Positions 3,001 to 20,230 of a stretch of DNA of 35,326 nt are shown here, piece after piece. The position numbers were made by a program, and so were the translations under genes. Below the pieces are notes generated by a model. The model was not told the origin of the DNA. It searched no databases and worked only from the letters and a program-made list of their open reading frames with translations. The stretch's first letter is position 1, and every line of letters begins with the position of its first letter. The stretch is from a virus: the IMG/VR virus record IMGVR_UViG_3300030099_007922, positions 27,856 through 63,181 of that record. One strand, given 5' to 3'.

Positions 3001-3161
3001 ATTCTGCTGCGGGATTACCCGAAAATAAGGGGGAAAAGCATTCAAAACTTAAGAAAGATAATGGTTGTGAAGAGGGTTGTGAGACAAAAGAAGTAGTAGA
3101 ACAGAGAGGTAAGTGCGAAGACCAAGAACAACAAAACCAGGAGGTAGTAGCAGATGAGTAG
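1..3161 (+). CDS. Large virion-associated structural protein, 5'-partial
   Basis: I do not recognise this family by name. The reading frame is open from base 3 with normal coding character (PQDKFVVYDVARVGGIPPQ...) and has no stop before the GTG at 123. That GTG lacks a Shine-Dalgarno site, so the gene almost certainly begins left of the window. At least 1052 residues are visible. A Glu/Arg/Leu-rich stretch encoded at about 1610-2060 looks like coiled coil. An Ala-rich helix follows at about 2630-2680. The C-terminal part includes a block ending YGYLITPVGYSAAGLPE. The last ~35 residues are highly charged, with three cysteines (GCEEGC, then KC). The stop overlaps the start of the gp25-like gene by 8 bases, which suggests translational coupling and a baseplate or tail role. 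That role is inference from position; no catalytic motif is visible. Confidence 0.75.
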   Translation, partial: PQDKFVVYDVARVGGIPPQIAENAQRLSQAIITRNAQIESVRESNARDRQGFGGFAEPDAPVPPPLTDQEKLAILYEGTGVDFANMGMLTPDLFDAPPVEIDLAYRRGTVTKEQLYERMKLRIRQLIQLTPLQPTETPWNRISPIYMNSPSFGSRSSDYVWIRTIDALMPNSNQIGEARKAEIIIDCLTKFVELSHNWPSDSEIPAVGDTQVWRPLWRDTNSIVNSGFSPFKEEALRSVSSANLPAIAYEMPTPNGIGGYRRTLSAQGAVENADMLVESMMYNHYRPDSIIATPKYHTQNRRQNEILEWYTQEVFRVDTPIDLSTTRAGIFNIGSDIDPGRIAVDVSFDDAGFEQRSIVPGREVDAAAIAEKQLELYTHLRDNLHVGYRMMFGHAVKRRETDLYGNIENYIRPSDIFGDFNVTKKGQMGIRNDRQGINMVDAFSSKATFLGHVEKNPVSLVSGRDNGFNSLNEQSIFYNNARLILEKHNTEFALRRPIDAEGFNIDLMSNDIVEGLVYCIPVDEVTRRVDCFEDIFNEFEEIEKRSVLERITDLQEQIENISRSDDQVIANRARAVNNDLIERRNVLMDSAEITRMQYESAMAEFNENPNIVIELKDADGNVTRRFERPRPRPSDARLQELLREIRGLENLIELGNQQIAQAERGELNLEETESLLDPIRSRLGEEQKIYNTQGFYNVFETDAERQRGKISHIRRSFLKKGIVFEKYHEDLISEILSLGPEYAAIMSPVIGSATYTEEKTGGLREINNENIDSTEEQLKPHRILFDYLFPLDRYASLHFLHNLEVYDNNRGRESQLLKATKLFIIQTLLQMQGLASPKEEDNVTETGNSTNVLRDNAGSFSLPTPDEIMEMIWNMIKKAAQEAAVAAWRGIADTVDFGYRDMRRGYQKDPCSMASGLTHELMRYGLADIDGPLEDGFGSKNGCKYFVPINKMGNDLVRALTNIEPSDIARDTYRISQHLKGTMQPGNSKRYGYLITPVGYSAAGLPENKGEKHSKLKKDNGCEEGCETKEVVEQRGKCEDQEQQNQEVVADE
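3139..3144 (+). promoter_or_regulatory. Strong Shine-Dalgarno for the gp25-like gene
   Basis: AGGAGG lies 9 bases before the ATG at 3154 and inside the 3' end of the preceding gene. It fixes the start of the gp25-like gene and shows bacterial-type initiation. Confidence 0.8.
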
Positions 3162-3540
3162 CATAGCACCGAAATTGCCGTTTATTGTTAGTAGATCCAG
3201 TACACCGATGAATACAAAAACTATTCAGGAAAACACACAACAAAACTTAAAAAATCTTATACTAACATCACCAGGTGAAAGAGTTATGGATCTGGATTTT
3301 GGCGTGGGGTTGAGAAATTATTTGTTCGATAATAACACAGCGGTTGTTAGAGCGCAACTTGAATCTAGAATATTTGAGCAAGTAGATAAATATATGCCTT
3401 TTGTAAACATAATAGATCTACAAGTAGTTGAAAATTTAAATCATCCAAATTCACTAGAAATAAAGTTAAGATACAATATACAAAATATCGCGTCAGAAGA
3501 AATATTATCCGTAAGTCTTGATCCTAAATTAAATATTTAA
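3154..3540 (+). CDS. gp25: Baseplate wedge protein, gp25/GPW family
   Basis: This 128-aa protein fits the gp25/GPW_gp25 family, the small wedge component that anchors the tail sheath to the baseplate in contractile phages and is related to TssE of type VI secretion. The family hallmark is visible at residues 40-59: PGERVMDLDFGVGLRNYLFD, followed by the expected helix (about 63-80) and a C-terminal beta segment with 'LEIKLRYNIQN'. The length is typical (T4 gp25 is 132 aa). A strong Shine-Dalgarno precedes the ATG. The downstream neighbour is gp6-like, the usual order in T4-type baseplate clusters, which supports the call independently. Confidence 0.93.
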   Translation: MSSIAPKLPFIVSRSSTPMNTKTIQENTQQNLKNLILTSPGERVMDLDFGVGLRNYLFDNNTAVVRAQLESRIFEQVDKYMPFVNIIDLQVVENLNHPNSLEIKLRYNIQNIASEEILSVSLDPKLNI

Positions 3541-3568
3541 CTATTTAATACTGTGAGGTTTTTAGTTT

Positions 3569-5353
3569 ATGAAAAAAAACATTCCGATTAATTATACAGA
3601 TAGAGATTTCAACTCTATAAAAAAAGCACTAGTAGAGCATGCAAGGAGATACTATCCTGATACTTACAGGGACTTCAATGAAGCGTCTTTTGGGTCTTTA
3701 ATGTTGGATACAGCGGCATATATTGGTGATGTGCTATCTTTTTATTTAGACTATCATGCGAATGAGAGTTTTCTGGAAACTGCAATAGAGAAGGAAAACA
3801 TAATTAATTTATCTAAAAACATGGGATACAAATATAGTGAAAGCATAACTGCATATGGAGAGTGTGACTTTTACGTTAACGTCCCGGCGTCTGCAGGTAG
3901 TCCTGACTTGGCTTACGCTCCTGTTTTAAAACATGGGGCGGAGTTATCAAGCGTCGACGGCGGACGTTATATGTTGTTGGAAGATATAGATTTTTCTGAT
4001 CCAAACAACCTTATAGTTGTCTCTGAGGTCGATGATACCACTGGTTCTCCAACCTTCTTTGCCATTAAAGCAACGGGACAAATAAAGTCTGGATTTATAG
4101 AGGAGTCGCTTGTTGAAGTTGGGGACTTTGAAAGGTTTCTTAGCGTAGAGGTGGAAGACGATAATATTTCAGAAGTAGTGTCAATAGAAGATGAGGAAGG
4201 TCACGTGTATTATGAAGTTGAACACCTATCTCAAGACGTTATATATGTCAACGTTTCAAACAGAAACAGTGATAAACATTCCGTTAAGAATATTATGAAA
4301 CCGTTATCTGTTCCAAGAAGATTTACTGTAGACCACTTTCCGGGATCTGTTGAAATACAGTTCGGGCAGGGTAGCGATATGGAAATATTATCTGGATCCT
4401 ATCTAGATCCATCAAAAGTGGCGATGAGACAGTTCGGAAGAGAGCATATTTCAAACACATATTTGGACCCCACTAATTTTACTTCTACAGAAAAAATGGG
4501 CATTTCGCCATCTAACACAACACTTTCAATTAGGTATAGAAAGGACGACGTTGAGAATGTTAATGCATCACCAAATTCGATTAACAGTGTTGTTGTTTCA
4601 GAGATGCAATTTGTAAACGAAAGTCAATTAGTGTTGTCAAAAGTTTCAGACGTGAGGGAATCACTGGAATGTCTAAATGAATTTCAGATTGTGGGAGATA
4701 TGAGTGTGCCGTCGGAAGAAGAGGTGAGAATTAGAGCAAAAAATTCTTTTTCCGCTCAAAATCGAGCAGTCACAAAACAGGATTATGTATCTATGGCGTA
4801 TTCCATGCCAAGTAGGTTCGGTGCTATCAAGCGAGCAAGGGTAGAGGTCGACAAAGACTCTTTCAAGAGAAACATAAACATGTTTATAATATCAGAAGAT
4901 TTAGATGGGTTTTTGACTGATCCCAGTATTACTTTAAAAAATAATTTAAAAAATTGGATAACAAATTATAAGATGATGGGCGATACTTTTGACATAATTG
5001 AAGCTAGGATTGTAAACTTTGGTATTGATTTTGAGTTTCTTCCTGCTAGAAACTACACTAAATCGGAAGCAACAGCGATATGTGTAAGAGAACTTCAAGA
5101 ATTTTTTAGAATTAAACCTGAAATTGGGGAAGCAATTTATATTAATGATATTTACAAAACTTTAAATGATTTAGATGCTGTGGTTGATGTTACAGACGTT
5201 ACAATTCGGTCTTTGTCTGGAGCGGGATATTCAAGCATATCTTATGATGTAGATGAAAATCTAAGTCTTGATGGTCGTACTTTGGTATTACCGTCAGATT
5301 TTATATATGAAATCAAGTATCCGTTGGTGGATATTAGGGGCACAACACTGTGA
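3569..5353 (+). CDS. gp6: Baseplate wedge protein, gp6/Baseplate-J family
   Basis: This 594-aa protein resembles T4 gp6 (660 aa), the wedge subunit that dimerises to form the inner ring of the contractile-tail baseplate. The N-terminal block carries the gp6-type signatures 'YTDRDFNSIKKAL', 'DFNEASFGSLMLDT' and 'LSFYLDYHANESF' (residues about 9-70). The centre has a J-type 'VEIQFGQGSD' segment near residues 260-270. The C-terminal half has 'QNRAVTKQDYVSMAY' (about 395-410), typical of baseplate J-like proteins. The gene starts 28 bases after the gp25-like gene, with GAGG at 3555-3558 as ribosome site. Its TGA overlaps the GTG of the next gene by 4 bases, so the two are probably translated together. 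Confidence 0.92.
   Translation: MKKNIPINYTDRDFNSIKKALVEHARRYYPDTYRDFNEASFGSLMLDTAAYIGDVLSFYLDYHANESFLETAIEKENIINLSKNMGYKYSESITAYGECDFYVNVPASAGSPDLAYAPVLKHGAELSSVDGGRYMLLEDIDFSDPNNLIVVSEVDDTTGSPTFFAIKATGQIKSGFIEESLVEVGDFERFLSVEVEDDNISEVVSIEDEEGHVYYEVEHLSQDVIYVNVSNRNSDKHSVKNIMKPLSVPRRFTVDHFPGSVEIQFGQGSDMEILSGSYLDPSKVAMRQFGREHISNTYLDPTNFTSTEKMGISPSNTTLSIRYRKDDVENVNASPNSINSVVVSEMQFVNESQLVLSKVSDVRESLECLNEFQIVGDMSVPSEEEVRIRAKNSFSAQNRAVTKQDYVSMAYSMPSRFGAIKRARVEVDKDSFKRNINMFIISEDLDGFLTDPSITLKNNLKNWITNYKMMGDTFDIIEARIVNFGIDFEFLPARNYTKSEATAICVRELQEFFRIKPEIGEAIYINDIYKTLNDLDAVVDVTDVTIRSLSGAGYSSISYDVDENLSLDGRTLVLPSDFIYEIKYPLVDIRGTTL
5336..5340 (+). promoter_or_regulatory. Shine-Dalgarno supporting a GTG start
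   Basis: AGGGG stands 9 bases before the GTG at 5350, within the end of the gp6-like gene. It supports the non-ATG start embedded in the GTGA start/stop overlap. Confidence 0.65.
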
Positions 5354-7296
5354 GTATAAAAAGATTTTTTTCAAATGCGGATAACACCATAACTAATGCC
5401 TTTGGTGCAAATCTACAAACTAGAAGAACTGGATCAAATATGGGGCAATCTGATATACTAGAAGTGTATTCCATTTATGGACAGGTAACTACGGGATCTA
5501 TAGAAAAATCACGTGCCCTTATTAACTTTGATGTTTCAAAAATAAAAACAGCAAGAGACAATACGGATATACCTGCATCTGGTAGTGTTAAATTTATGTT
5601 GAGGTTGTTTAATGCAGAGCACCATCACACTTTGCCAAGAAATTCTACCTTAGCGATTCTTCCAATATCTCGTTCTTGGAATGAGGGTTCGGGTTTAGAT
5701 ATGGAAGATTATTCAGACGAAGATGCGTCAAGTTGGATATTTTCCAGCAATACGAGGGTTGCAGACGTAACAGATATAAAGTTTGTTTCAACAACCCCTG
5801 CAGATTATAGCGGTAAGTATTTTATAGTTCAGGTTATTGGCGATGATGGTAGTCGTGCGAGATATAATTTTTGGTTTGATCACAACGGGTCCGCCACTGC
5901 ACCAAACCTCGATGGTAGCGAAGTAGAAGTTCAAATAAATGCCGCGTCAGAAAATACAGTCAAGAGGTTTGCAAGACAGGTTAAGGTTGCTGTAGATGCA
6001 CTTTCTATTAATTTATCCGCTTCTATATCGGCGGACGATACTGAAGATTCTTCTGGTGCGACTGTGAGATTGACTAATACTGTTGTGGGAGGTACATCTG
6101 GATCGATTGTTCCTGAATCTATCCTGGATACTGATGTTTTTACGCTTACAAAAGTTCAAATTGGTGGTAAAACAAGGTGGACAAATGCAGGTGGAGACTT
6201 TCATGAAGTTGGATACACAGCTGGAGAGAATTTGCCGCATTACAAGTACGATCTGATCGATGGAACAGAGGATGTCGAAGTAAACATAACATCTTTAGTA
6301 GAGGAGTGGATCGCTGCGGAATCAACGGTTGACCCAGATCGGGAAAATTATGGCGTTATGATAAAGATGTCCGGATCATTTGAAGATGGAACTAAAAAAA
6401 GATCTTATTATACGAAACGATTCTTTGGCAGAGGGACAGAGTTTTTTCTTAAAAGACCGTGCATTGAGGCAAGGTTCGACAATTCTACTAGAGACGATCG
6501 AGCAAATTTCTTTAAAAGCAGTTCTCTTGCCACTGGTGCTGAAAATTTAAATACACTGTACTTGTTTAATTACACTAGAAATACGCTTTCTAACATACCA
6601 GCACTATCAACTTCACCAGATGGATCTGATCAGTCAACCGGAGAAACTTTGATGAAAGTACAATTGTTCGAATCTGTTTCGGATTCGGCGAAACCGCACA
6701 TTTATGCAGTCGGTGGTGGTGTACCATCCGGCAGAAACGCTGGAAGCAGAAATTGGGCATCAGCATATTTATCAGAGACTGGAATTTACAGTGCATCGAT
6801 TGCTTATACTGGTTCTGCTACAAAACTATACGATGTTTGGAGCACTACAGCAGGAGTTCAGTTACATACCGGTTCAGCAATTACTGTTAAAACATTTAAA
6901 TCGTTGGATCATAATAATGCTGATGAGGAATATATTGTTTCCATGCCAAATCTAAAACCAAAATATAAAACAAAAGATAGTCCAACGTTGCGTCTTAATG
7001 TTAGAAAAAAAGATTATCAACCTAATATTTATTCAGTAGCAAGTAACAAATTGCAAAATGAAGTTTTGTATAATGTATACTATAGAGCGTATAGGGTAAT
7101 CGATCATCAGGAAGTGATATCATACGGATCGGGAAGCATACCACACACAAAGATGTCTTATGACTCAAGTGGTAGTTTTTTTAAGGTTGATATGTCGTTG
7201 TTCGAACCAGGATACATGTATGCTTTCGAAATTTCAACAGATTCTTATGAGCAGAACATAGTCAATAAGGATGAATTTAAGTTTAGAGTTGATTAA
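5350..7296 (+). CDS. Structural protein with split DNRLRE/CBM96-like domain
   Basis: This 648-aa protein starts with GTG. Residues 1-136 look like the first half of a DNRLRE/CBM96 carbohydrate-binding beta fold: 'NMGQSDILEVY' (30-40), 'SRALINFDVSKI' (54-65) and 'AILPISRSWNEGSG' (102-115). The second half appears at about 273-390, with 'KTRWTNAGGDF', 'VEVNITSLVEEWI', 'NYGVMIKMSG' and a 'KRFFGRGTEFFLKRP' strand pair. Between the halves, residues about 137-272 form a separate beta-rich segment ('YFIVQVIGDDGSRARYNFWF'). The remaining C-terminal half is beta-rich, ending in a fibronectin-like 'VLYNVYYRAYRV...YMYAFEIST' part. The placement between gp6 and the giant lectin-like gene suggests a baseplate-attached glycan-binding or fibre protein. 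The domain call is by pattern only; the exact virion location is unknown. Confidence 0.7.
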   Translation: MSIKRFFSNADNTITNAFGANLQTRRTGSNMGQSDILEVYSIYGQVTTGSIEKSRALINFDVSKIKTARDNTDIPASGSVKFMLRLFNAEHHHTLPRNSTLAILPISRSWNEGSGLDMEDYSDEDASSWIFSSNTRVADVTDIKFVSTTPADYSGKYFIVQVIGDDGSRARYNFWFDHNGSATAPNLDGSEVEVQINAASENTVKRFARQVKVAVDALSINLSASISADDTEDSSGATVRLTNTVVGGTSGSIVPESILDTDVFTLTKVQIGGKTRWTNAGGDFHEVGYTAGENLPHYKYDLIDGTEDVEVNITSLVEEWIAAESTVDPDRENYGVMIKMSGSFEDGTKKRSYYTKRFFGRGTEFFLKRPCIEARFDNSTRDDRANFFKSSSLATGAENLNTLYLFNYTRNTLSNIPALSTSPDGSDQSTGETLMKVQLFESVSDSAKPHIYAVGGGVPSGRNAGSRNWASAYLSETGIYSASIAYTGSATKLYDVWSTTAGVQLHTGSAITVKTFKSLDHNNADEEYIVSMPNLKPKYKTKDSPTLRLNVRKKDYQPNIYSVASNKLQNEVLYNVYYRAYRVIDHQEVISYGSGSIPHTKMSYDSSGSFFKVDMSLFEPGYMYAFEISTDSYEQNIVNKDEFKFRVD

Positions 7297-7298
7297 TT

Positions 7299-10200
7299 AT
7301 GAGTCTTAAAAGTTTATTTGGAAAAGATAAAAAAAATCTAAAAATATCTTCTTTGGTTAATTCCGATAAGTTATTGGAGGATGTAGAATCAATATCTTAT
7401 ATTGATCAATTTATAAAGGATCGTAAGAAGTTTAGATCCCATACCGATTATTATACTGGATCAAATTTTGCAGTATATGGTTCCCTCGAAGAATATTACA
7501 GGGCGGGAATTGATAGGATCATCAACACTTATCCTTATGATGGTTCACTCAAAGAAAAGTTAGAATGGATCAACGATTCAAACGGATTTGATCTGCATCT
7601 TTTCGAAAACGAGTATCCAAGAACAAATGGTTATATAACATTTGCAGACAGCGCAGCAGACAACACGGATTCGTGGGGATCTGTTACCTCAACTTCGGGC
7701 GCATATGGCAATCCAGCAAACAAGGAATATATTCTTATAAAGGGTGGACCTAACGTTGGAAATTTTTATAACACTGGTTCTTTAAGAACCTCCAATTTAG
7801 AAATTAACGGTCGAAACGGGAATACTGTAGAGTTTTGGTTAAAAAAATCAAACTATGTTACATCAAAAACCCAAAGAGAAGTATTATTTGACATCTCAAC
7901 CACAGGGTCGCATCAGGGTAGTTCAGCGTATGGTCGACTAACTATAGAGTTGGATAGTGGAAACTCTAATGCTTCGCCATTTTTGTTAACATATCAGTCT
8001 GGATCAACTGGGTATAAAGAGGTTCGTGTCGGCGCACCCCAATTATACACCAGTGCGTCTGATGGCAATTGGCACCACTACGCCATATCTTTTAAGAATG
8101 AATCTAATAAAATAAGAACATCATTGTATATTGACGGCGAATTGCACAAGTCTGTTTTAACAGGTAGTGCAATAGGATCACTCAATACTGCTCTAATAGG
8201 TACTATAGGCGCTCTTTCCACCGGAAAGGATTCGCAACTTGTCACAAGAACATCCTCGGAGTCTTTTATTCCTGGGTTGGGGTATGGTAAACTATCAGGA
8301 TCATTGGATGAGTTTAGGTTTTGGAAAAAAGAAAGAACTGCAAAAGATGTAGGTCGCTTTTGGTTTACACAAGTCGGCGCCGGAACTAATACAGATATCG
8401 CTAACACTCCTTTAGGGTTTTATTACAAATTCAATGAAGGTGAGACCGGACAGGTTAGAATTGATAAAACCGTTTTAGATTATTCTGGGCGTGTATCGAA
8501 TGGACAATGGATTGGATATGCTGGTTATGGGCGAACAAACAACTCGGCTATAGTTGAATCTTCTGCTTCTGTAAGTGAGTTTAAGGATCCAATTATATAT
8601 TACGATCATCCGAAAGTCAAAAGTTTTAGAGAGTCTGCGTTAGAGCAGGGGTATGCGTATGACCTGACTAACGCTTCAAGCATGTATTATAGTTTTCCAG
8701 ACTGGATTGTCGACGAGGATGGAGAATCCTCAGAAGACTTAAAAAAGATGACACAAATTGTTGCAAGTTATTTTGACAGTTTGTTTTTACAAATTAAAGA
8801 CTTAAAAAACTTAAGACATATTCAATATTCAGGATTCAAGAATAAACCGCACCCATTTAATCAAATAAAATTACAATCTATGGGTCTCATATCTCCAGAA
8901 TTGTTTATGGATGCTAACATTCTTAATACATTCGTTAATAGAGATGAGCATCAAAACTACGAACAGAGTCTGTCTGATATTAAGAATTTTATTTATAACA
9001 ATATTTATGGCAATTTGGAATCCATTTTTAAATCAAAGGGAACCATTAGGTCTTTTAGGAATCTGTTCCGATGCTTTGGGGTTGATAACGAGTTAATTAA
9101 AATAAATATGTACTCTACCGATTCAACGTATCCGGTGGAAAGTAGTTATCAAAACTCTGTTGTAAAGAGCAAGTACCTGAACTTTAACAGTGTTAATAAT
9201 AAGAATGCAACCGTGTTTCAATCTCTAGACGGACTGAGAGGATCCTACAGACTAGCAGATGCACGTGGATATGTTACAGGATCAGAGGGATTAATTTCAG
9301 ACGACGCCGCGACAGCAATCGGTATGACTGCTGAAGTTCAGGTGTTTATACCAAAGTTATATCAGATCAATCATCCGTTTTATTTTGATTCAGAGGTTAG
9401 TAGTAGTTTGTTTGGGTGCCACTCAGTCAAGAAGAATGCTGACGGAAAGAACGAAGTGACAATATCTTGGCCATCTTCAGCTGATGACCATTCTAATTTT
9501 CAAGTTTATGTTGTGAAAGAGAATGCTTTTTCAAAAACTGCAAAGTTTGTTCTTGAGAGTCGAAATGGCATATTTGATCCGGTAGAGAGTGATTTTATAG
9601 TTGACCTATATGATTCTAATAGGTGGAATCTTGCTGCCCGTCTAGTTGCGGCAGCACCGGAAGGAGACACTGTTTCCGGATCAGGCAATAATTATAAATT
9701 TGAATTGTATGGTGTGAACGTAATCGCGGACTCAATAAATGATAAATTTTCTTTAAGTAGCACAATATCTTCTGCCAATGCAGCAAACTTTATAAAGAAT
9801 TCAAGAAGATTCTATGTCGGCGCCCATCGCACGAATTATACAGGCGGAGTGATAACTACTACAGATGTAAAAATTACAAACTTTAGAGTGTGGAATAAAT
9901 CCTTGACAGATGATGAGATAAACTCTCACGCTTTCGATCCACGATCATATGGACTGTCTTCGCCATCAAAAAAGTCTTTCCCGTTATCAGACATCGGTGG
10001 AGCACAGATTCCTCAAATAGATTTACTCGCAATTAACTGGGATTTTTCTGACCTGACGGGATCCGACTCAAATGGTCAAATGTGGATAAATGATGTTTCG
10101 TCTGGGTCACACGCACCAAGTAAATTGCATCATGGAAAGATTCATCCAATTGTGGGTCGAATCCACCCAGGTAAAGGACTTTTCTTCCCATCATCAACAA

Positions 10201-13200
10201 CTAGCAGTGTTGACGTTGAGTTTGATCAAGCAACAAGATTGCAACCTTTTGAGAATGTAAAAGCATCAGATATGGTTCAGATTGTATCTAACGACGACAT
10301 AACATTTACGAGAGAAACAAAACCAACTGATTACTTTTATTCGTTTGAAAAAAGCATGTACGCTGCGATATCTGATGAAATGATAAACTTTTTTGCTGGC
10401 GTCAGTGAGTTTAGTACTTTAATCGGTGCACCTGTTGAAAGATATCGTCAAAATTATAAAGGTTTAGCAAAATTAAGACAGGTCTTTTTCCGGAGAATAC
10501 AGAATGCACCAGACATAGAGAGATATACAGAATATTATAAGTGGTTGGATTCCTCTCTATCAATTATGATCGATCAATTGATTCCCGCTTCTGTTGATTC
10601 ATCAGAAGATATAAGAAATATGATTGAAAGTCATATCTTGGAAAGAAGTAAATATTTCAACAAATTTCCAACAATGGAATTTAAACAGTCAGACCCAGAG
10701 GGTCAAATCCGAGGAGTTAATGAACTTTTGTATGATTGGCAGCACGGGCATGCCCCGCTTGGCACCCAGACTGATGATAACGTTAACTGCCTTTGGACAA
10801 AGGAAAGGGCACAAAGAAGCACCGACATATTGGTTTCAGGATCCACAGAAACAGATCCTGATCGTGAGATAATTAGAAGAGTTATAAACACTTCCGTGTC
10901 TGGATCAACATATGCAACTCGGCGTTTATCCCGACCCTACAGACTTTCGGTTGAAGATCAAAGACATGCTAAGGGTGGCGACAACACGTTTGGTAATAAA
11001 AAGAAAAGATTTTACACTGGCGTTTCTACAGCTCATGGAACCTCACACATTTCGGTTACAGGATCGGATGCAGCGCCATTGATGTGTAAAGACACAATCA
11101 ACCCTAGTAAAAAGAAGAAAATCCGAGCAACAGCAGACGTCGCGTTCTCTCAGAAGGACCGAGATATCAACGATGTCGCCCCCTTTACTCTGTACAGCAG
11201 TTCTTTGGATGACGTAAGAGATTACCACACCCAGGTGTTTAGCGGGTTTAAGAAAGGCGTGGAGATCTCCAATCTTCACGCAGACGAATACGGTGATGAT
11301 AGGGAGGTAACTCTCCAGTCTCCATTCACTGAAAAGTGGGTCGGAGGTAACGCGCACCGTCGTCAAGATCTTTCAGGATCTTTGTTGGGTCAAATAGACG
11401 CTAAAAAGCAAGGACATGACCGAGTAGAAGCGTTTAAGTTACTAGCAGAGGGCGGCATATTGTATATTCTTCCCCCGAATGCATCTGGCATTGACGCAAG
11501 CAAGATACCCATTATAGACCATACACTACAGACTGCACAGGTTTTGAGAGATGGACTAGCCAAGCGACCGGTTAATATTAAAAACATAGCAACAACAACT
11601 GGAAGCATTGCACTTGGAAACTATAATCACATATATGATGTTGTGCAATACACAACTGAAGATCAGAGAAAAGACTTTGTAGTAGATAATTTGGAGCAGA
11701 TGACGTCTTCTAACTCTACTGCCATACCAGGAGTTAAGGAATTTTCTAAATTCCCTCGTCCAGCACGAAAATCCGTATTTAAAGCGAGATTTTCAGCACC
11801 GGGCGGCACCGAAGTCGCTGGCGACAGTCGCGGCGGACATAGTATTGATAGAGAGACAAATCAATATTCTGTGTATAACTCTTTAAATTATAGAAATTTA
11901 TCGGTAAGGGGTCCGAGAGATTATTTGAACAGTGTGCCCCAGACAGGGAGCACTGATTCTAATAGTCTTGTAACTGATCACAAAATTAATTCAAATCCAA
12001 GATATAGAAGAAAGATGGACGGTGGGATGTATAGCGGCGAATTTGACCGCAATATGGACAATCGATTTGTTCAACATGAAATTCCCCAAAATGATTATCA
12101 GTATGCTTGGTTTACTTCTTCAATATCAGAACATGTCGACGCAGCTGCAATCTCTGGGCACTTGCACTCATTTAGTCAAGCGTCGATCGGTGATGCTACT
12201 GGGTCGTTAAGGTATGAAAGAACTTATGAATTTGTTAGCGGAAACTTTGGGCGCTTCGGTCGACAATTGCCAATGCGCGGACAGGATTTATATGATTTAA
12301 ATTTTGCAAATATAAACATTCCAGGTGTGAATGTTCAAGATCACTTGACGTCTTCTATAAATACCATATCTTCTGCCCATGCGCATGGTATGATATCTGG
12401 AACAATAAATTATAGGCACGGTCCATACGGTTGGCCAACCTGGAAACAGATTAGGGTTGGGGAGACTGCATTAGCCAGATACTTTAGAAGAAATAACATA
12501 TACTCACTTCCAGTGAGGGACCAGGGAGGTGGATTAGAACCTACGATTGACTTTAGAACTTTAGGTAATTATTCCTGGCCAGATAATATAGACCATAGAG
12601 TAGGGGGACCTGATAGGAGAATTGACCATCAGGATTATAGATTTACTGATCCGCCTGTTACTTCAAACAGGCATCCGATAGCATTGAGGACATTTTATCC
12701 AAATGTTCCTTATATTGGTTTTGGGGAATCAAACACTCCACCGTCAGAAGATCGTATTCCGAGACTTCCTCGTTTTGGAATTCCACCAACCCAGAATAGA
12801 CGTAGTTTTGACAGAGTGCCAGAAGCAACCCCTGGTAATAGGTTTAACGCATTAAGTTCTTTTCAACCTGCGTCTAAGAAATATTCTTTTAGTAATAAGT
12901 TGACCCAATTTGCAGATGACGAATTATCAAAAGTCTTAAATATTCGACAGTCCTTACCCTTTAAGGAAGATGCATTGTTGCAGGACGACCTTTTAACTTA
13001 TGACTTTACTGTTCCGGGATCAACCGTAGAATATTCAATGAATATTTTTCCAAAAGAAAAGAATACTTTTCTCGAACAATCAAGAGAAAGAACAAGGTTT
13101 AAGACAGATGATTTTTGGAAGACAACCCAGGCAGAAAGAGTTTTAACAAATATAACCAACTCACAAGGAAACACAATTCCAGAACTATCAGTATGGCCAC

Positions 13201-16200
13201 TAGATGGACCTACTAATTTTGGATCAAACGCAATCAATACAACGGTGCAAAAGTTGACAGGCGACGGATCAGGTGAATTGTTTGCAAACTATGCTGTTTT
13301 TCATAATGGAATGACGCACCCTAGTGCAAGTGCACTATATGCTAGACCATTTCCAATGCAATCCACGTCCAGTTTACCAGCGACAAATAAGTTGTTTAAA
13401 TTCTTTTTAGCACATACAATCAGTAGAAAAGCACAATTGTTTGGTGATTTTACTGCCGATGCTAGAAAAGCGCTTGCAAGTCTTGGACAGATGTCTGTGA
13501 TTCTTAAGGTAGCCAGAGCGAATGCAAATCATGTACCCGCCCAAGTCACCACATCCGGATCGGTGCCTGATGGGTATGTGAACGATGCAGGAGTATCTTC
13601 CACCACATCAGACACCAAAGGCGTGAGATGCGGTAACGCCCAGGGAAATTCGGGTTTTCAACCGATAACATTTCAAGGCACTCGAACTGGCGCAGCAGGC
13701 ATTACCGGAGAACCTGGTGGATATTCTTTTTATAGGTTTTTACAAACTACAGGCAGTGTAATAAATTCAAGATCATTGTTAATAAACTTTCATTTAAGAA
13801 CGGGCGGAAACGGATCGAACGCAGACCACTATGGCATTAAAGCGAGCACACTTCCTATGTATGTTCAGGTTGGATCAGATGCAAACGGGTGGTTGACTGT
13901 AGCAAAGATAGATCCAGAAGACAAACACAAGGTTAATAACAGGTTTGCATTTCATAGTGTGCTTGTAACTGCCTCTGCAGGAACTGCACGAGAGGTTAGG
14001 TGGATTGCCCCGAGCACCGATGATCCGGGGACGGGCAATTGGAATTTAGCGCTACCAAATATTTATGAAGCACAGACTGTGCAATCTTTTAACTTATCTG
14101 CTGAGTCCGATAATGATTTTGTGGGAGTTGCTGGAAATCACGTGTCGTCTTCATTCACAGTTGCAAATCGTCTTCCCGCAAAGAGAGACTATTTTACGCC
14201 TCAGTCTAACATAGGATTCTTGTCGTATGCTGCAATTGATGACTACGGTGACGAAGCGTTTAAGAATTGGACAGGCGCAGCAAACACATTGTCTCCATTG
14301 GGTGCATATTTTTCCTCTAGCATATCTTTGGAGGTAAACAAGACTTTTGATGTTAAATTTAGGCAAGATTTTGATTCCGCCAGCGTGATGGTGTACCCAA
14401 AGAATAATGAGGTTACCAATCATCTGTACGGATCTCAGTTTTTTAGAACACCAGAACACGCTGCTAGAAGTCCGTTTAATTATGATAATTACGAAGATTT
14501 CGCATATCAGTCAAAATTATTAGCAAAAGATTTTTCTGTTGTTCCTGAATTTAGAATAAGTGAGCATATGAATCGGTATATAAATGAGATTGGCGGTGCC
14601 GACCCATTTTTTAGTTGTAATGATACGATGTTAACTCTGACGGGATCTAAAACACTTCAAAACAGTTCGCAGGATGGTTTTTATGAAATTTACAGTCATA
14701 CCGACTTTATAAAGCATTTTGACGTTGTTGAGAGTAGGATGAATGCTATAAAGGGTGCAACCCCGACTAAACTGTCTTTAGAATGCAAGGCTTTTAAAAA
14801 GTTTTTGCCATACAAGGGTTTCTATCCTGCAGACCGAATGACTCAGATAGCAAGCGAGTTCAGTTCTTCTTATAGTCAGTTTGTTACAGGTGGACACTGG
14901 AGGAATGTATTAGCACCCTATTACGCACCAGGGATTGGGTTCAATACCATAAAGTCGGGTATTGCTGTAGATTATCCCATTTTTGAACCACATGAAGATA
15001 GAATCTACAATCAGTACGGAATAATATTTCAATCTGCTAGTTTAGCAATAGATCACGATGGCGGTAATGCTGTTAGTGCTGATACCGGACGCCCTTGGAT
15101 CGCAGGCGAGGGCGGATCAGGATTAAGTGGGTCTGCGAAACTCTCACTTAATAGAATTGAAATAGGTGGCGGATCTGACTGGGCAAAGTTAATAACTGGT
15201 AGTTTGTCCCCATCAGCAGAAAATAAAAAATTAACAGTTTCATGTTGGATATATTTGCCCAAGAAGCACAGAGTTGCTGATCCGTTTGGTCAATCAATCA
15301 ATTCTTACGGTTCGTTCCGTCAGCGCGGAACTATTGCTAGTTTTGGTAGTGGTGAGGATACAACTGACTCAGCGTGGAAAAAGGGAATTCATTTTGGATA
15401 TTGGACACAGGCAATGATCGCATCGACAGACAACGATATGGGTGTGGATCTTCCCGACACCGGAGGCGCCTTTGACGATAACGACCCAAATTATACTATA
15501 GGTTTTACGTGTTTTGGTGGCAATGGCAAGGACTTTTTTGCCTTATCTAAAATCGGCGCTGCACCAACAATACAAACTCTGGCGGGCCCGACAGCGGTCT
15601 GCTCCAAACCTGAGCTTAGTATGTCACCAGGGTGGAATCACATTCTTCTAACTTTAGATCCAAATGGAATAGGGTATGATAGTAATTTTAGTCATATTGG
15701 GTTTGACGCGTATGTTAATGGGCAAGAGTGGCACACAGATGTTCACCTAACTGCAAGCTCCGGGTTTTATGACGGAGGTTCAACTGAACCAGCTAATCAA
15801 ACCGAGAGTACGCCGCAAGGTATTGTAACTAACTCTGGGTCTGCCAAACCGCTTTTGGATGGTGATAGAAACTGCTTTATTGGCACTCACTTGGGAAGTG
15901 TAAAGAGAATCAATGCGCTCCCACAGTTAAACTTAAGACCTGGTACATACGAAAAAGAAACTGAAAAAATCACTTTATTCAGTTCTGCAAGCAACAAGTT
16001 CACACTTCAATCAAGAGACAATTGTCTTACCTCGACAGGTGCAGACGAACATACAATGTTGGATTGGTTGCAACCTTCGGAAATGATGATTTCCGAGGTG
16101 ATGATCTTCAATGCTGTTGCAGCTTCGAGCACGGAAGAAATGGCGAAAAGACTTTCTGGATATGTCAATGGAACACCAGATTTCGCATCTTTTACAAACG

Positions 16201-19082
16201 ATCCATCTCTCGAAGACGTTGATAATTTAACTGTTTTCAATACGGTAGGAAATACGCTTGGTGCAAGACACCCGTACACCTGTTTAGAGAAACAATATCA
16301 TAAAAATCTAATTGCATGGTACAGACCAGGAAACGATACTGGGTATGTTCCTGCAGGGCGTACGAATGGTTTGCATGTGTTTAACCATGCACAAAATTTA
16401 TTTAGTGGTAAAATTCCAGGTGACACAACTGGAAGCGTATTGCAATATGACATACATAGTATGCCTTCAAAATACAATCACATGTCGGCAACTTTATATG
16501 GATTTACAAATTGGACAGGATCTGTCGCACGTGACCTTAAGTTTTCACCTAGATACAGACAGCGGTGGAACGGAATAGCAGACTTATCAAACCCCGCTCA
16601 GTATACATATGTCTATAGTTTTCCATCTGCATCGATTGCTGATAATCCGGATGCACCTTTTAAAACTTGGTATGCAAATATAGGAAGTGATTATTGGTTT
16701 GAAAATTCAAGAGCGTATACTGAAAAACTGCTTATTGAGAACAATCCAAACTTAACAGGGTCATATATGGTTTGCACAGGGTCTGTTAAGATTCCATCAT
16801 TTATTGTTGGCACAAATCGTAATTTTACTGAAGATAGTTCGGTGCCAAGAATTGGATCTGCAAGTTATGGTACGTATCACTTTACTGGATCGTCCGCTGT
16901 CGGAGCAGAGGAGGTTTACTCACAAGGTTGGATAAACGATTATCAAAAGAATACGGGTGTGCGCAAAGTGAACAGAATTCCTTTTGAGGCAATAATATTT
17001 CCTGCTGCATTTACACCTGAAAGTAAGGACGACGGTGATTCCCCATTTGCTCTTTATTATGATAACGAACCACATTACAGTGCAAGCTTGCATGGCGCAA
17101 TGACAAACAAGCGAAGATATGTCCAGCAGAATTCTCACAATCAGCAGGTTTACGAGTGGACTGATAAAGACACAAACGTTGATTATAAGACAGATGAGAA
17201 CTTTCATTTTGGTGTTGCTATGAATTCGGCATCAGTGATGAGTCAATTTGATTTAGCTAGTGCACGAAGAAGGTCGGCACTATACACATTTGCAGCAAAT
17301 AATTTTTATGCAGAATGCTTAAACTTTTTTATTGCAAATAGAAAGGGTGTAACGATCAGGTCTAAGAGTAGACCTGGACTCCCTGTTGATCCTAACATAC
17401 AACAATACAGGATGACTATCGAACTAAACTCTGGACGAAATCCGGCAAGAAACAAAGATAATCCACTTTACAACAACCCGGCCGCCTTCGGTCCACCGGT
17501 TGATGCTGGCATACACAGAAGACAGCATATTGACGGTACACACTTTTCTAGGTCTTTGCAGTCTCATGGATATGGGTTCGCACCATATTTGCCATCTCAT
17601 TACGACGGATTCTCCCGAGCAGTATATACGTTTACTCCGGATTCAAATATTGTGTATACAACGGTGCCTCAAATACTGGAAGATACAACAGTAGAATATT
17701 TTAGAAGCATCAATTCAACAGGATCTATTTCAACGAGGGGTGGCAGCGGTTTTGCCAGCAATGAAAGACCTGCGGCAGACACGGTTGTGTCCTCGTACAA
17801 TAGAAGGTTTGCAATGCATATTACTGAAAGTTTTAACGGGTTATCGTTGGGGCAAGAAGAAAACCTGGTGCAAAGATACACTCCAGCTGGGGATCCGATT
17901 GAGGGAGAGAAGTCACTGGTTATTCAAACTAAGTTCGAGTGTCCAACTTTTGACTTCTCCGAAGTTGACGCTGACCAACCCAGAACCAGCGAAACTTTAC
18001 AGCACCTTCCAAGAATAAAGGGAATATGGCACCAGACGGGTTCCTTTGGTGCGGATGCAAAAAGACCAAACGTTAGAATTATTACTCCGCGAGCAACAAC
18101 AAATGTCGGCGACCTCAGTAGGTTATTGGGAATGCAAATTGAGGACGAACAGAACGTTGTAGGAGAACTTCCAGAATCCAGAACCGTTAGGGAGGGTGTG
18201 GTCGCGATTCCTTTCCGTACTAGGAATAACGTTAGAAGGTTTTACAATTTACCGCATCATGAGGTATATCAGGCGGTTAGAAATCTTGGGTACTCTGATT
18301 ATAAATTAAAGACAGAAGAGGAGAGGAGGCAGTTCGAAGAGTTTGCAAATCGTATTGATAATCCTCCTGGTCTTGCCGGCGGTGGCGGCATACCGGGTCT
18401 AGATATTACAAGAAGAATACTTGACGACCAAAGTAGTGTACCCTTGGTTCGTCCTTCGATTCAGAAGATGGTTCGATCTATGATGCACTACAATATTCCG
18501 CCGCAATTTAACTTTTTAAAGTATAACAACCCTAATGGAAAATACATAAAACCATTTGCAATGTACATATTTGATTTTTCAGTATCTTTGAACAAGGAAG
18601 ATATTGCTAGGATTTGGCAAAACGTCACCCCAGACTTTGGATTAAACGATTTTGGTTCAACAAATGGATCAAGACAGATTTTAAGTTCTAGGGTTGTTGA
18701 GCATGATTTGTATGATACGGATGATTTACTTAATCCAATTCCTGATATGTACCCTCTTCCGGGCGAGGATGATCGGTATGGTGTTAGAAATTGGACTGGC
18801 GGTTTTCATGAAGATTTGCAGTGGATGGTTTTTAAGGTCAAACAAAAAGCAGAATCAAACTATTTTCGAAAGAAAGAACTGGACAAACTGCCTGATGGTC
18901 ATCCTGAAAAAATCATTAGTGTTGAAAACGATATATTTAGATATGGTTTTAATTGGCCGTATGATTATTTTTCTTTAGTTGAACTAGTTAATCTGAAGTC
19001 ATCTGTCTCTTTTGGAGACAAAGAGCATCGGTTTGATGGCAGAACTGCTAGAACATTTTTAAATAGGAGAGAAGACGATTGA
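7299..19082 (+). CDS. Giant (3927 aa) LamG-containing virion protein, probable baseplate/host-recognition component
   Basis: This single uninterrupted frame fills a third of the window. Three concanavalin A/LamG-like segments are visible: residues ~165-375 (NTVEFWLKK, GNWHHYAISF, LDEFRFWKKERT), ~678-885 (DVKITNFRVWNKSLTDDEI) and ~2640-2960 (KLTVSCWIYLP, GWNHILLTLDPNG). Residues ~461-600 resemble P2 gpI/wedge-type tail proteins, with 'FKSKGTIRSFRNLFRCFGV' at 576-594. Other distinctive blocks are a helical segment at 1020-1130 (MYAAISDEMINFFAG), 1325-1360 (NLHADEYGDD...PFTEKWVGG), 1706-1733 (RHGPYGWPTWKQIR) and a C-terminal region at 3752-3860 (PFAMYIFDFS, LQWMVFKVKQ). About 30 (T/S)GS tripeptides are scattered through it. 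It follows gp25-gp6, so a wedge-linked role (positional analogue of gp7) plus surface-glycan binding is inferred. The ATG is 2 bases after the previous stop with a weak ribosome site, suggesting coupling. No catalytic motif was recognised. Confidence 0.8.
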   Translation: MSLKSLFGKDKKNLKISSLVNSDKLLEDVESISYIDQFIKDRKKFRSHTDYYTGSNFAVYGSLEEYYRAGIDRIINTYPYDGSLKEKLEWINDSNGFDLHLFENEYPRTNGYITFADSAADNTDSWGSVTSTSGAYGNPANKEYILIKGGPNVGNFYNTGSLRTSNLEINGRNGNTVEFWLKKSNYVTSKTQREVLFDISTTGSHQGSSAYGRLTIELDSGNSNASPFLLTYQSGSTGYKEVRVGAPQLYTSASDGNWHHYAISFKNESNKIRTSLYIDGELHKSVLTGSAIGSLNTALIGTIGALSTGKDSQLVTRTSSESFIPGLGYGKLSGSLDEFRFWKKERTAKDVGRFWFTQVGAGTNTDIANTPLGFYYKFNEGETGQVRIDKTVLDYSGRVSNGQWIGYAGYGRTNNSAIVESSASVSEFKDPIIYYDHPKVKSFRESALEQGYAYDLTNASSMYYSFPDWIVDEDGESSEDLKKMTQIVASYFDSLFLQIKDLKNLRHIQYSGFKNKPHPFNQIKLQSMGLISPELFMDANILNTFVNRDEHQNYEQSLSDIKNFIYNNIYGNLESIFKSKGTIRSFRNLFRCFGVDNELIKINMYSTDSTYPVESSYQNSVVKSKYLNFNSVNNKNATVFQSLDGLRGSYRLADARGYVTGSEGLISDDAATAIGMTAEVQVFIPKLYQINHPFYFDSEVSSSLFGCHSVKKNADGKNEVTISWPSSADDHSNFQVYVVKENAFSKTAKFVLESRNGIFDPVESDFIVDLYDSNRWNLAARLVAAAPEGDTVSGSGNNYKFELYGVNVIADSINDKFSLSSTISSANAANFIKNSRRFYVGAHRTNYTGGVITTTDVKITNFRVWNKSLTDDEINSHAFDPRSYGLSSPSKKSFPLSDIGGAQIPQIDLLAINWDFSDLTGSDSNGQMWINDVSSGSHAPSKLHHGKIHPIVGRIHPGKGLFFPSSTTSSVDVEFDQATRLQPFENVKASDMVQIVSNDDITFTRETKPTDYFYSFEKSMYAAISDEMINFFAGVSEFSTLIGAPVERYRQNYKGLAKLRQVFFRRIQNAPDIERYTEYYKWLDSSLSIMIDQLIPASVDSSEDIRNMIESHILERSKYFNKFPTMEFKQSDPEGQIRGVNELLYDWQHGHAPLGTQTDDNVNCLWTKERAQRSTDILVSGSTETDPDREIIRRVINTSVSGSTYATRRLSRPYRLSVEDQRHAKGGDNTFGNKKKRFYTGVSTAHGTSHISVTGSDAAPLMCKDTINPSKKKKIRATADVAFSQKDRDINDVAPFTLYSSSLDDVRDYHTQVFSGFKKGVEISNLHADEYGDDREVTLQSPFTEKWVGGNAHRRQDLSGSLLGQIDAKKQGHDRVEAFKLLAEGGILYILPPNASGIDASKIPIIDHTLQTAQVLRDGLAKRPVNIKNIATTTGSIALGNYNHIYDVVQYTTEDQRKDFVVDNLEQMTSSNSTAIPGVKEFSKFPRPARKSVFKARFSAPGGTEVAGDSRGGHSIDRETNQYSVYNSLNYRNLSVRGPRDYLNSVPQTGSTDSNSLVTDHKINSNPRYRRKMDGGMYSGEFDRNMDNRFVQHEIPQNDYQYAWFTSSISEHVDAAAISGHLHSFSQASIGDATGSLRYERTYEFVSGNFGRFGRQLPMRGQDLYDLNFANINIPGVNVQDHLTSSINTISSAHAHGMISGTINYRHGPYGWPTWKQIRVGETALARYFRRNNIYSLPVRDQGGGLEPTIDFRTLGNYSWPDNIDHRVGGPDRRIDHQDYRFTDPPVTSNRHPIALRTFYPNVPYIGFGESNTPPSEDRIPRLPRFGIPPTQNRRSFDRVPEATPGNRFNALSSFQPASKKYSFSNKLTQFADDELSKVLNIRQSLPFKEDALLQDDLLTYDFTVPGSTVEYSMNIFPKEKNTFLEQSRERTRFKTDDFWKTTQAERVLTNITNSQGNTIPELSVWPLDGPTNFGSNAINTTVQKLTGDGSGELFANYAVFHNGMTHPSASALYARPFPMQSTSSLPATNKLFKFFLAHTISRKAQLFGDFTADARKALASLGQMSVILKVARANANHVPAQVTTSGSVPDGYVNDAGVSSTTSDTKGVRCGNAQGNSGFQPITFQGTRTGAAGITGEPGGYSFYRFLQTTGSVINSRSLLINFHLRTGGNGSNADHYGIKASTLPMYVQVGSDANGWLTVAKIDPEDKHKVNNRFAFHSVLVTASAGTAREVRWIAPSTDDPGTGNWNLALPNIYEAQTVQSFNLSAESDNDFVGVAGNHVSSSFTVANRLPAKRDYFTPQSNIGFLSYAAIDDYGDEAFKNWTGAANTLSPLGAYFSSSISLEVNKTFDVKFRQDFDSASVMVYPKNNEVTNHLYGSQFFRTPEHAARSPFNYDNYEDFAYQSKLLAKDFSVVPEFRISEHMNRYINEIGGADPFFSCNDTMLTLTGSKTLQNSSQDGFYEIYSHTDFIKHFDVVESRMNAIKGATPTKLSLECKAFKKFLPYKGFYPADRMTQIASEFSSSYSQFVTGGHWRNVLAPYYAPGIGFNTIKSGIAVDYPIFEPHEDRIYNQYGIIFQSASLAIDHDGGNAVSADTGRPWIAGEGGSGLSGSAKLSLNRIEIGGGSDWAKLITGSLSPSAENKKLTVSCWIYLPKKHRVADPFGQSINSYGSFRQRGTIASFGSGEDTTDSAWKKGIHFGYWTQAMIASTDNDMGVDLPDTGGAFDDNDPNYTIGFTCFGGNGKDFFALSKIGAAPTIQTLAGPTAVCSKPELSMSPGWNHILLTLDPNGIGYDSNFSHIGFDAYVNGQEWHTDVHLTASSGFYDGGSTEPANQTESTPQGIVTNSGSAKPLLDGDRNCFIGTHLGSVKRINALPQLNLRPGTYEKETEKITLFSSASNKFTLQSRDNCLTSTGADEHTMLDWLQPSEMMISEVMIFNAVAASSTEEMAKRLSGYVNGTPDFASFTNDPSLEDVDNLTVFNTVGNTLGARHPYTCLEKQYHKNLIAWYRPGNDTGYVPAGRTNGLHVFNHAQNLFSGKIPGDTTGSVLQYDIHSMPSKYNHMSATLYGFTNWTGSVARDLKFSPRYRQRWNGIADLSNPAQYTYVYSFPSASIADNPDAPFKTWYANIGSDYWFENSRAYTEKLLIENNPNLTGSYMVCTGSVKIPSFIVGTNRNFTEDSSVPRIGSASYGTYHFTGSSAVGAEEVYSQGWINDYQKNTGVRKVNRIPFEAIIFPAAFTPESKDDGDSPFALYYDNEPHYSASLHGAMTNKRRYVQQNSHNQQVYEWTDKDTNVDYKTDENFHFGVAMNSASVMSQFDLASARRRSALYTFAANNFYAECLNFFIANRKGVTIRSKSRPGLPVDPNIQQYRMTIELNSGRNPARNKDNPLYNNPAAFGPPVDAGIHRRQHIDGTHFSRSLQSHGYGFAPYLPSHYDGFSRAVYTFTPDSNIVYTTVPQILEDTTVEYFRSINSTGSISTRGGSGFASNERPAADTVVSSYNRRFAMHITESFNGLSLGQEENLVQRYTPAGDPIEGEKSLVIQTKFECPTFDFSEVDADQPRTSETLQHLPRIKGIWHQTGSFGADAKRPNVRIITPRATTNVGDLSRLLGMQIEDEQNVVGELPESRTVREGVVAIPFRTRNNVRRFYNLPHHEVYQAVRNLGYSDYKLKTEEERRQFEEFANRIDNPPGLAGGGGIPGLDITRRILDDQSSVPLVRPSIQKMVRSMMHYNIPPQFNFLKYNNPNGKYIKPFAMYIFDFSVSLNKEDIARIWQNVTPDFGLNDFGSTNGSRQILSSRVVEHDLYDTDDLLNPIPDMYPLPGEDDRYGVRNWTGGFHEDLQWMVFKVKQKAESNYFRKKELDKLPDGHPEKIISVENDIFRYGFNWPYDYFSLVELVNLKSSVSFGDKEHRFDGRTARTFLNRREDD
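19065..19071 (+). promoter_or_regulatory. Shine-Dalgarno supporting a TTG start
   Basis: AGGAGAG lies about 7 bases before the TTG at 19079, inside the end of the giant gene. It is the main reason for accepting the rare TTG start in the TTGA overlap. Confidence 0.65.
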
Positions 19083-20230
19083 CTTTTTTCAATAAAAAAG
19101 AGGAAGTTCTAGATGTTCAATTGACTCAATTGGGCAAATACTTGCTTTCAAAGGGAAAATTAAAACCGACATTTTATGCGTTTTCGGATGATGAAATACT
19201 TTATGACCCCTCCTACGCTGGTGTTGAAAATAAAGAAACTGCAAAAGAAGCATCAAACAGAATACAGAAAGACACTCAGCGTTTGCGAGCATTGTATGAG
19301 CATGATGGTGTCGAGACAAGAATTAAATCCTTAAATGGGCACGAAGTTGAAAAAGTTAGAGGGTTCGGATGGCAAGCTAGAATTAAAAATAGAACAGAAG
19401 AGATGCCATTCAATCAAGCATATGGTATTGATACGTTTACAGAAGAAAAGATGGGGGCAGACGATAGAAATTTGGTTAGAAACATGTTGGGAAATTCTAA
19501 GATTGGCGAACAAAGATCTCCATCATGGCGCATCGATTCCCTTTACAATGGTGTAATAGAAAGTATAAACATAAGTTCTTCATCTCCAAACGTTGGAATA
19601 AAAAGACCAGTTTTAAATTTAGAGGTTGATTACGATATTGTTGGCGAGTACATTTCCCCAACGGAAGTTGACCCTGCAAGTCTTGATGGGTTTTATTTAG
19701 AGGTTGGACCAGATGGGCAACTTGCACAGTGGGAGTTTGACATGGATTCACCCCTGCCAAGAAGCATCTTGTTTGTTGATTCTGTCAAGGCGAATGTTCC
19801 AAACTCACCAGTTGTTTTAAGTATTATAGAGGATAACGTACAGTTTGATTTAGAAAATTTTGAGTATGAGTTTTATGAAATAGAAAAGGTTGAACAAAAC
19901 GAGAGAGCAAACAATGCATCAGTTGAGAGGTTGAGAAGGTTATCAAATTTTTCACCTATTGCTGGACCTTTTGGGTCAGACGATCCTGCGTTGATGCCAA
20001 ACAAAAAAAGCATAGAACATTATTTTACTGTGGGATCGGATGAAACAGTTGAGAGTGTTTTTGGTACAGACTTAAATGGCGCAAACCCGTTTAAGAGACT
20101 TTTGGCGATACAGGAAGATATCAACAACACTGTACACGCAGCAGCTAAATATGCAGAACACGCTCGAAATCCAGAGGCAGCTGCCATCGACTCTCAATTA
20201 TCAAATGCAGAAGGGGAGTGTGAAGACTGA
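19079..20230 (+). CDS. Structural protein with 'LT-G...DDEI-Y' N-terminal module
   Basis: This 383-aa protein of unknown precise function starts at TTG, overlapping the giant gene's TGA by 4 bases. Its N-terminus reads 'VLDVQLTQLGKYLLSKGKL', then 'YAFSDDEILYDPSYAG' (residues ~10-48). The same arrangement occurs at the N-terminus of the 27013-28029 product, so the two share a module. A second similar stretch, 'KRPVLNLEVDYDI' near residue 175, aligns loosely with a 'MPATLQETQFIIEADYRLG' stretch in that other protein. The centre is beta-rich, and an acidic helical stretch precedes the short Ala-rich C-terminus (NNTVHAAAKYAEHARNPEAAA). The context is tail/baseplate structural. No enzymatic motif is seen. 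Confidence 0.75.
   Translation: MTFFNKKEEVLDVQLTQLGKYLLSKGKLKPTFYAFSDDEILYDPSYAGVENKETAKEASNRIQKDTQRLRALYEHDGVETRIKSLNGHEVEKVRGFGWQARIKNRTEEMPFNQAYGIDTFTEEKMGADDRNLVRNMLGNSKIGEQRSPSWRIDSLYNGVIESINISSSSPNVGIKRPVLNLEVDYDIVGEYISPTEVDPASLDGFYLEVGPDGQLAQWEFDMDSPLPRSILFVDSVKANVPNSPVVLSIIEDNVQFDLENFEYEFYEIEKVEQNERANNASVERLRRLSNFSPIAGPFGSDDPALMPNKKSIEHYFTVGSDETVESVFGTDLNGANPFKRLLAIQEDINNTVHAAAKYAEHARNPEAAAIDSQLSNAEGECED

Follow-up and report, generated by a model that had tools for sequence, protein, structure and literature searches.

The giant protein of 3,927 amino acids (aa) encoded in this viral sequence is best explained as a contractile-tail wedge subunit of the gp7/gpI type that has grown through inserted LamG domains and a long extension of its C-terminus (probability of about 0.7). 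That it is a wedge subunit can be stated with considerable confidence, while the chances that its LamG domains act in adhesion are about even. At the level of sequence comparison, the gene slot, the shared core, the LamG insertions and the modular variation within the family are demonstrated, and the giant is a genuine variant of the gp7/gpI wedge protein that is widespread and so far uncharacterised. The window, i.e., the whole stretch of 35,326 nucleotides that was analysed, spans positions 27856-63181 of an IMG/VR virus record of 68,265 bases and includes the following features.

3154..3540, + strand: gp25-like sheath initiator/baseplate wedge subunit (P2 gpW equivalent), matching PF04965 GPW_gp25 (Pfam E 1e-12)
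3569..5353, + strand: gp6-like baseplate wedge subunit (P2 gpJ equivalent), matching PHROG 10646, baseplate wedge (E 3e-17)
5350..7296, + strand: 648-aa protein between gp6 and the giant, with a relative in 90 of 93 searched loci
7299..19082, + strand: giant, probable gp7-type wedge protein, 3,927 aa, ATG start, zero internal stops
7299..7643, + strand: N-terminal helical part of the giant, residues 1-115, helices in the AlphaFold model
7653..8570, + strand: LamG1, residues 119-424, matching Pfam Laminin_G_3 (PF13385) with E 1e-12 at 159-351
8544..9134, + strand: wedge core a, residues 416-612, aligned to the immuto family by hhalign
9147..10253, + strand: LamG2 insertion, ~residues 617-985, between core a and core b, a beta-sandwich in the AlphaFold model
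10254..10688, + strand: wedge core b, residues 986-1130, with the 'IDQLIPAS' segment, aligned to immuto by hhalign
10689..13358, + strand: middle region, residues 1131-2020, the first ~500 residues present in most relatives and variable after that
14409..14993, + strand: C1 block, residues 2371-2565, in essentially all relatives that run from N- to C-terminus (coverage profile)
14994..16343, + strand: probable LamG3 slot, residues 2566-3015 (best match 2605-2867), assigned from the same slot in relatives
17259..18998, + strand: conserved C-terminal block, residues 3321-3900, with 'YGFNWPYDYFSLVELV' (coverage profile and alignment of 49 relatives)

As the original prediction had it, the giant is read from a single uninterrupted frame of ~11.8 kb and lies downstream of gp25 and gp6, both recognised by the profiles listed above. 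The gp25 gene also matches PHROG 261 (E 5e-18), and the window gp6 shares 33% identity over its full length with gp112 of Flavobacterium phage immuto. In the window, the gene order is gp25, gp6, the 648-aa gene and the giant, and the order is kept in relatives: gp6 is found upstream of the giant in all 85 loci where both were detected, usually at a distance of 1.4-2.5 kb with a relative of the 648-aa gene in between. The description of this 648-aa neighbour as carbohydrate-binding-like was not confirmed, as scans of Pfam and PHROG gave nothing significant and the sole match was a sub-threshold endosialidase beta-barrel (E 0.025).

Several observations concern the wider surroundings of these genes. 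A 1,876-aa ORF (L312:8238-13868) ends at about window position 13 and overlaps a 5'-open frame running to 3161 (window 1-123). In relatives, the place of these overlapping frames is taken by a single ORF that reaches gp25 and encodes at least 1,800-2,085 aa, and a frameshift or gene split is possible at window 1-123. Upstream of the window, the same genome carries a putative surface-glycan biosynthesis cluster (G000:C1:1-16300; L311 and L312), judged by eye from the first residues, with genes resembling those for sugar-nucleotide epimerases/dehydratases, glycosyltransferases, a cytidylyltransferase and a NeuB-like synthase; such a cluster fits a phage handling surface glycans and proves nothing. 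Right at the window end and beyond it, an SbcC-like gene (L313:656-1408, ~63.2 kb in the genome) contains a few ambiguous bases that give X on translation. The 338-aa protein at 27013-28029 contains 'LTDTGRFRMARGDF..FALGDDEIDY' and shares 51% identity over 97 aa with immuto gp107, and the product of 19079-20230 begins with a similar motif, making this a recurring N-terminal motif.

Profile comparison by hhalign ties three stretches of the giant to immuto gp109 (YP_010114574.1, 1,265 aa), namely residues 42-66 to 281-305 (E 8e-5), 433-613 to 388-585 (E 5.7e-23) and 999-1128 to 625-751 (E 2.6e-13). Core a includes the helix KSKGT-SFRNLFRCFG at ~residues 576-606, and this KGT-helix region also aligns with cyanophage gp7 (E 4e-4 and 2e-4) and with a P2 gpI profile built from twelve relatives (E 1e-3), while the N-terminus of cyanophage gp7 aligns with residues 727-801 of T4 gp7 (E 7e-7). 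With 60 column shuffles per target, none reached the observed score, and this includes the short match of residues 42-66 (0/60). These E-values are pairwise, and when the window segment was compared with all phages by tblastn, the cyanophage protein came up at E 0.4 only, so synteny matters for the assignment. The KGT-helix profile similarity and the gene slot support the wedge reading, and the expectation that the giant stands in the gp7 slot is borne out. It shares a wedge core with gp7/gpI-type proteins.

The predicted P2 gpI/wedge-like region is upheld by the profile matches to gpI, immuto and cyanophage gp7, but not by significance in Pfam. For Tail_P2_I (PF09684) the cut-off was not reached, with no match in the window's genome, and the sole match in the 484-kb genome LR756508, a weak one (E 0.02, 12.7 bits), fell inside the giant's homologue. 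The giant is therefore filed as gp7/gpI-like by profile and position and not as a member of the Pfam family. A resemblance between 'KPASRHL' of P2 gpI and 'LIPAS' of core b is attractive by eye, yet it gave an hhalign E of 0.5 and is not claimed. A PDB sequence search produced no match of the core to a solved gp7 or gpI, and LamG was all that sequence searches of Pfam, PHROGs and PDB returned for the core and for the C-terminal block. AlphaFold modelled the immuto core with modest confidence (pLDDT 65), and Foldseek placed contractile-baseplate entries at ranks 1, 3, 5, 7 and 34 of 49, counted by entry and not by subunit, with no hit of the core at E <0.5.

Of the three LamG domains originally proposed, two are certain (LamG1 and LamG2) and one is probable (LamG3). 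LamG1 scores 48.9 bits against a Pfam cut-off of 27.6, and its Foldseek matches in PDB are led by pentraxin, laminin and neurexin LG domains (E ~1e-6 to 1e-5) and other ConA-like folds. It fills the stretch between the N-terminal immuto match and core a and is found in all family relatives, whereas the immuto protein is without it. LamG2 reaches only E 0.016 in Pfam and is modelled as a confident beta-sandwich by AlphaFold, where residues 1-1180 (76 sequences, pLDDT 78) form two beta-sandwiches and a helical core. An iterated LamG profile matches the window protein at 119-424 (E 2e-71), 609-947 (E 2e-18) and 2605-2867 (E 0.06); as the iteration took in family sequences, the value for LamG2 is a favourable one. 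The domains were also proposed to flank the wedge region, which needs revision in that LamG2 interrupts it and separates the KGT helix from the remainder of the core. Here, the giant has ~385 residues compared with ~40 in immuto, so that relative to immuto LamG2 is inserted into the core; alternatively, immuto may have lost it, because weak LamG-like matches occur in this region in Microcystis phage Mel-JY01 and LR756508 (E 7e-4 and 3e-4).

The probable third domain rests on the corresponding slot in relatives, since direct profile comparison of LamG1 and LamG3 was not significant (E 0.02). The slot of the window protein has no Pfam match, while residues 2770-2933 of the relative L017 gave E 4e-5 with the un-iterated profile and 8e-35 after iteration, and a clear LamG directly follows C1 in L015/L017, L021 and L080. 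Across 100 giant ORFs, 29 have a LamG match past residue 600 at E <1e-3, some of these being LamG2 itself and many lying at ~1400-2450, where the window protein has none; L056, L082 and L087 have two matches each in that range. In one relative (L008:10001-14314), LamG1 itself is interrupted, with LamG profile matches at 102-308 and 407-689, i.e., an insertion within a LamG. The mean identity is 47% for LamG1 and 47% for the core, and LamG2 and the LamG3 slot are less conserved. LamG1 is not hypervariable, unlike what a receptor-binding site might show.

A pattern scan of IMG/VR using the family alignment identified at least 588 stretches encoding relatives of the giant, and complete unsplit ORFs in the fetched viral loci encode 2,806-5,456 aa, most of them ~3,000 aa. 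In a coverage profile of 64 loci spanning both ends of the giant, residues 1-1600 and 2400-2550 are present in nearly all and residues 3350-3900 in ~85-100%, in agreement with the conserved-looking C-terminal region noted originally, while residues 2050-2350 and 2700-3100 occur in ~10%. Accessory LamGs and gene splits of relatives fall in the middle region. The best conserved C-terminal signature, 'WMVFKVKQRA..NY ... Y.NWPYDFFSLVEL' at ~3840-3900 (window 18816-18998), had no database match, and profile comparison of C1, the middle region and C3 with immuto, cyanophage and T4 gp7 gave zero matches. Family members from uncultured marine phages are already deposited in BFVD, as found using Foldseek, without a function, and the literature search returned no virion proteome or structure for any family member. 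A 1,559-aa relative with 40% identity over residues 1-1219 was also found on a 2.8-Mb contig of a WOR-3 bacterium MAG chromosome (CP070664.1; L176), preceded by a gene for a relative of the 648-aa protein and with no tblastn match to the window gp25 or gp6 in the fetched stretch; this locus may be a provirus, a relic or a chimaera.

These relatives bear directly on whether the ORF is genuine and whether it is one protein. A metagenomic contig and an unusual length could raise the suspicion of a chimaera or a chance long frame, yet relatives in at least 588 IMG/VR stretches, together with full-length ones that are colinear over the size range given above, reduce this to a negligible probability, as does the C-terminal quarter of the giant (residues 2956-3927), which is 100% identical to part of a second IMG/VR record (L003); a chance ORF or assembly artefact is rejected on the strength of the relatives. 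A fusion of a LamG-bearing gp7 (~1-1900) with a separate baseplate protein (~2370-3927) would be compatible with the best explanation, and it could account for seven relatives (L025, L028, L029, L036, L046, L064 and L084) in which the same sequence is divided between two neighbouring genes, the gaps at the junctions being -4 to +24 bases and the starts ATG or TTG. Most relatives are nevertheless unsplit, and the fused form may be the ancestral one from which the split forms arose, leaving this a rather doubtful account. A single chain is in any case not essential, as the N- and C-terminal parts are separate genes in several relatives.

The identity and role of the protein leave two further alternatives. 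The giant may be a tail-fibre or receptor-binding protein that follows gp6 by chance, with the true gp7 elsewhere, e.g., at 20230-23550 or 23553-26975, neither of which gave an assigned function. Most of the giant's length is without a gp7 match, and its core has no significant structural match to gp7, but a core common to immuto gp109, cyanophage gp7 and P2 gpI together with a fixed gene order make this improbable. More serious, if somewhat short of even odds, is the possibility that the protein is a gp7-type wedge whose LamGs are structural, packing on fibres, on adjacent wedges or on the 648-aa protein, and bind no host glycan. LamG folds often make protein contacts, which would suit such a role, and LamG1 is both present in every relative and conserved like the wedge core. 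The gp7-like part of the injection system AlgoCIS has been placed as the fibre- and neighbour-binding side (PMC8894135). On the other hand, the accessory LamGs vary in number and position, and LamG2 and LamG3 diverge faster than the core, both a better fit to outward-facing modules.

For a gp7/gpI-type wedge subunit that carries insertions of LamG1 close to its N-terminus and of LamG2 within the wedge domain, plus a clade-specific extension of ~2,800 aa, a mechanism can be sketched from the baseplates of T4 and P2. One copy of the giant would join two copies of gp6 in each of six wedges, with core residues 20-115, 416-612 and 986-1130 forming part of the core bundle and trifurcation unit. LamG1 and LamG2 would then be placed in loops at the surface, and the extension of 2,800 aa may form a peripheral arm that points outwards, so that each baseplate would carry 12-18 LamG domains. 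Their most likely partners would be glycans of the cell surface or capsule, or fibres of the phage itself, and such contact could be coupled to rearrangement of the wedge and contraction of the sheath. Should the LamGs bind glycans, a single chain would connect contact with firing. It could further be speculated, tentatively, that a widespread marine phage lineage has shifted host-surface recognition into the wedge by placing lectin-type LamGs in and on gp7, at least 12-18 per baseplate, and that gain or loss of LamGs in fixed slots of this single gene tunes host range. The analysis gives a likely role to an abundant, unannotated family of giant marine phage proteins and describes its anatomy as a wedge core, LamGs inserted at fixed sites, further LamG slots that vary, and a C-terminus that is conserved.

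Compared with known systems, the gene order gp25-gp6-X-giant parallels gp6-gp7 of T4 and W-J-I of P2. T4 gp7 (1,032 aa, 26% of the giant and so the quarter originally estimated) and P2 gpI/Tail_P2_I (176 aa) are much smaller; they have the gene order and the KGT/KGI helix in common with the giant, the relation is visible solely through profiles, and no LamG was found in T4 gp7. The closest counterparts, immuto gp109 and Mel-JY01 WWT39511.1 (1,336 aa), both from cultured phages and annotated as hypothetical, occupy the same slot after gp25 and gp6 and share the giant's wedge core on either side of the LamG2 site, yet they are one third of its length and have no detected counterpart of the C-terminal blocks. 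Unlike the giant, immuto gp109 is without any LamG.

The single-chain design was originally judged unusual, which is weakened by proteins of 4,000-6,500 aa in the same slot of cyanophages, by a LamG in one of them and by the carbohydrate-binding modules of AlgoCIS; giants of this size, and LamG within them, both have precedents. Cyanophage gp7, labelled 'baseplate wedge initiator' (4,156 aa in S-SM2, ~5,195 aa in P-SSM2 and 4,024 aa in S-B05), is a giant directly after gp25-gp6, with no 648-aa gene between gp6 and gp7 and no LamG found in its core, and its relation to the window giant is detectable in the alignable KGT region only. Syn19_088, annotated as a 'virion structural protein' of 6,483 aa and encoded immediately after gp6, has a LamG of its own at 4153-4327 (E 2e-18) and belongs to family T4-GC969, whose presence in S-SM1 virions was established by mass spectrometry (PMC3037559). 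In AlgoCIS, the wedge protein Alg11 has two carbohydrate-binding modules (domain IV), and the gp7-like part of Alg12 has been called a hotspot of re-engineering (PMC8894135). As compared by description, AlgoCIS resembles the giant in adding carbohydrate-binding modules to a wedge protein and differs in the fold of the modules, in the wedge chain that bears them and in being an extracellular injection system and not a phage. The literature search found no description of a LamG inserted in a wedge domain or of the accretion pattern, and it looks as if the protein type is known and the LamG-decorated, size-variable form is not described in the literature searched. Finally, gp7 has been stated to be absent from cyano- and pelagimyophages and apparently substituted by VrlC (PMC7029224). 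The alignment to T4 gp7, the gp7 labels in P-SSM2 and S-SM2 and a 1,016-aa relative in the slot after gp6 in HTVC008M argue, on sequence grounds, that the protein after gp6 in cyanophages is gp7.
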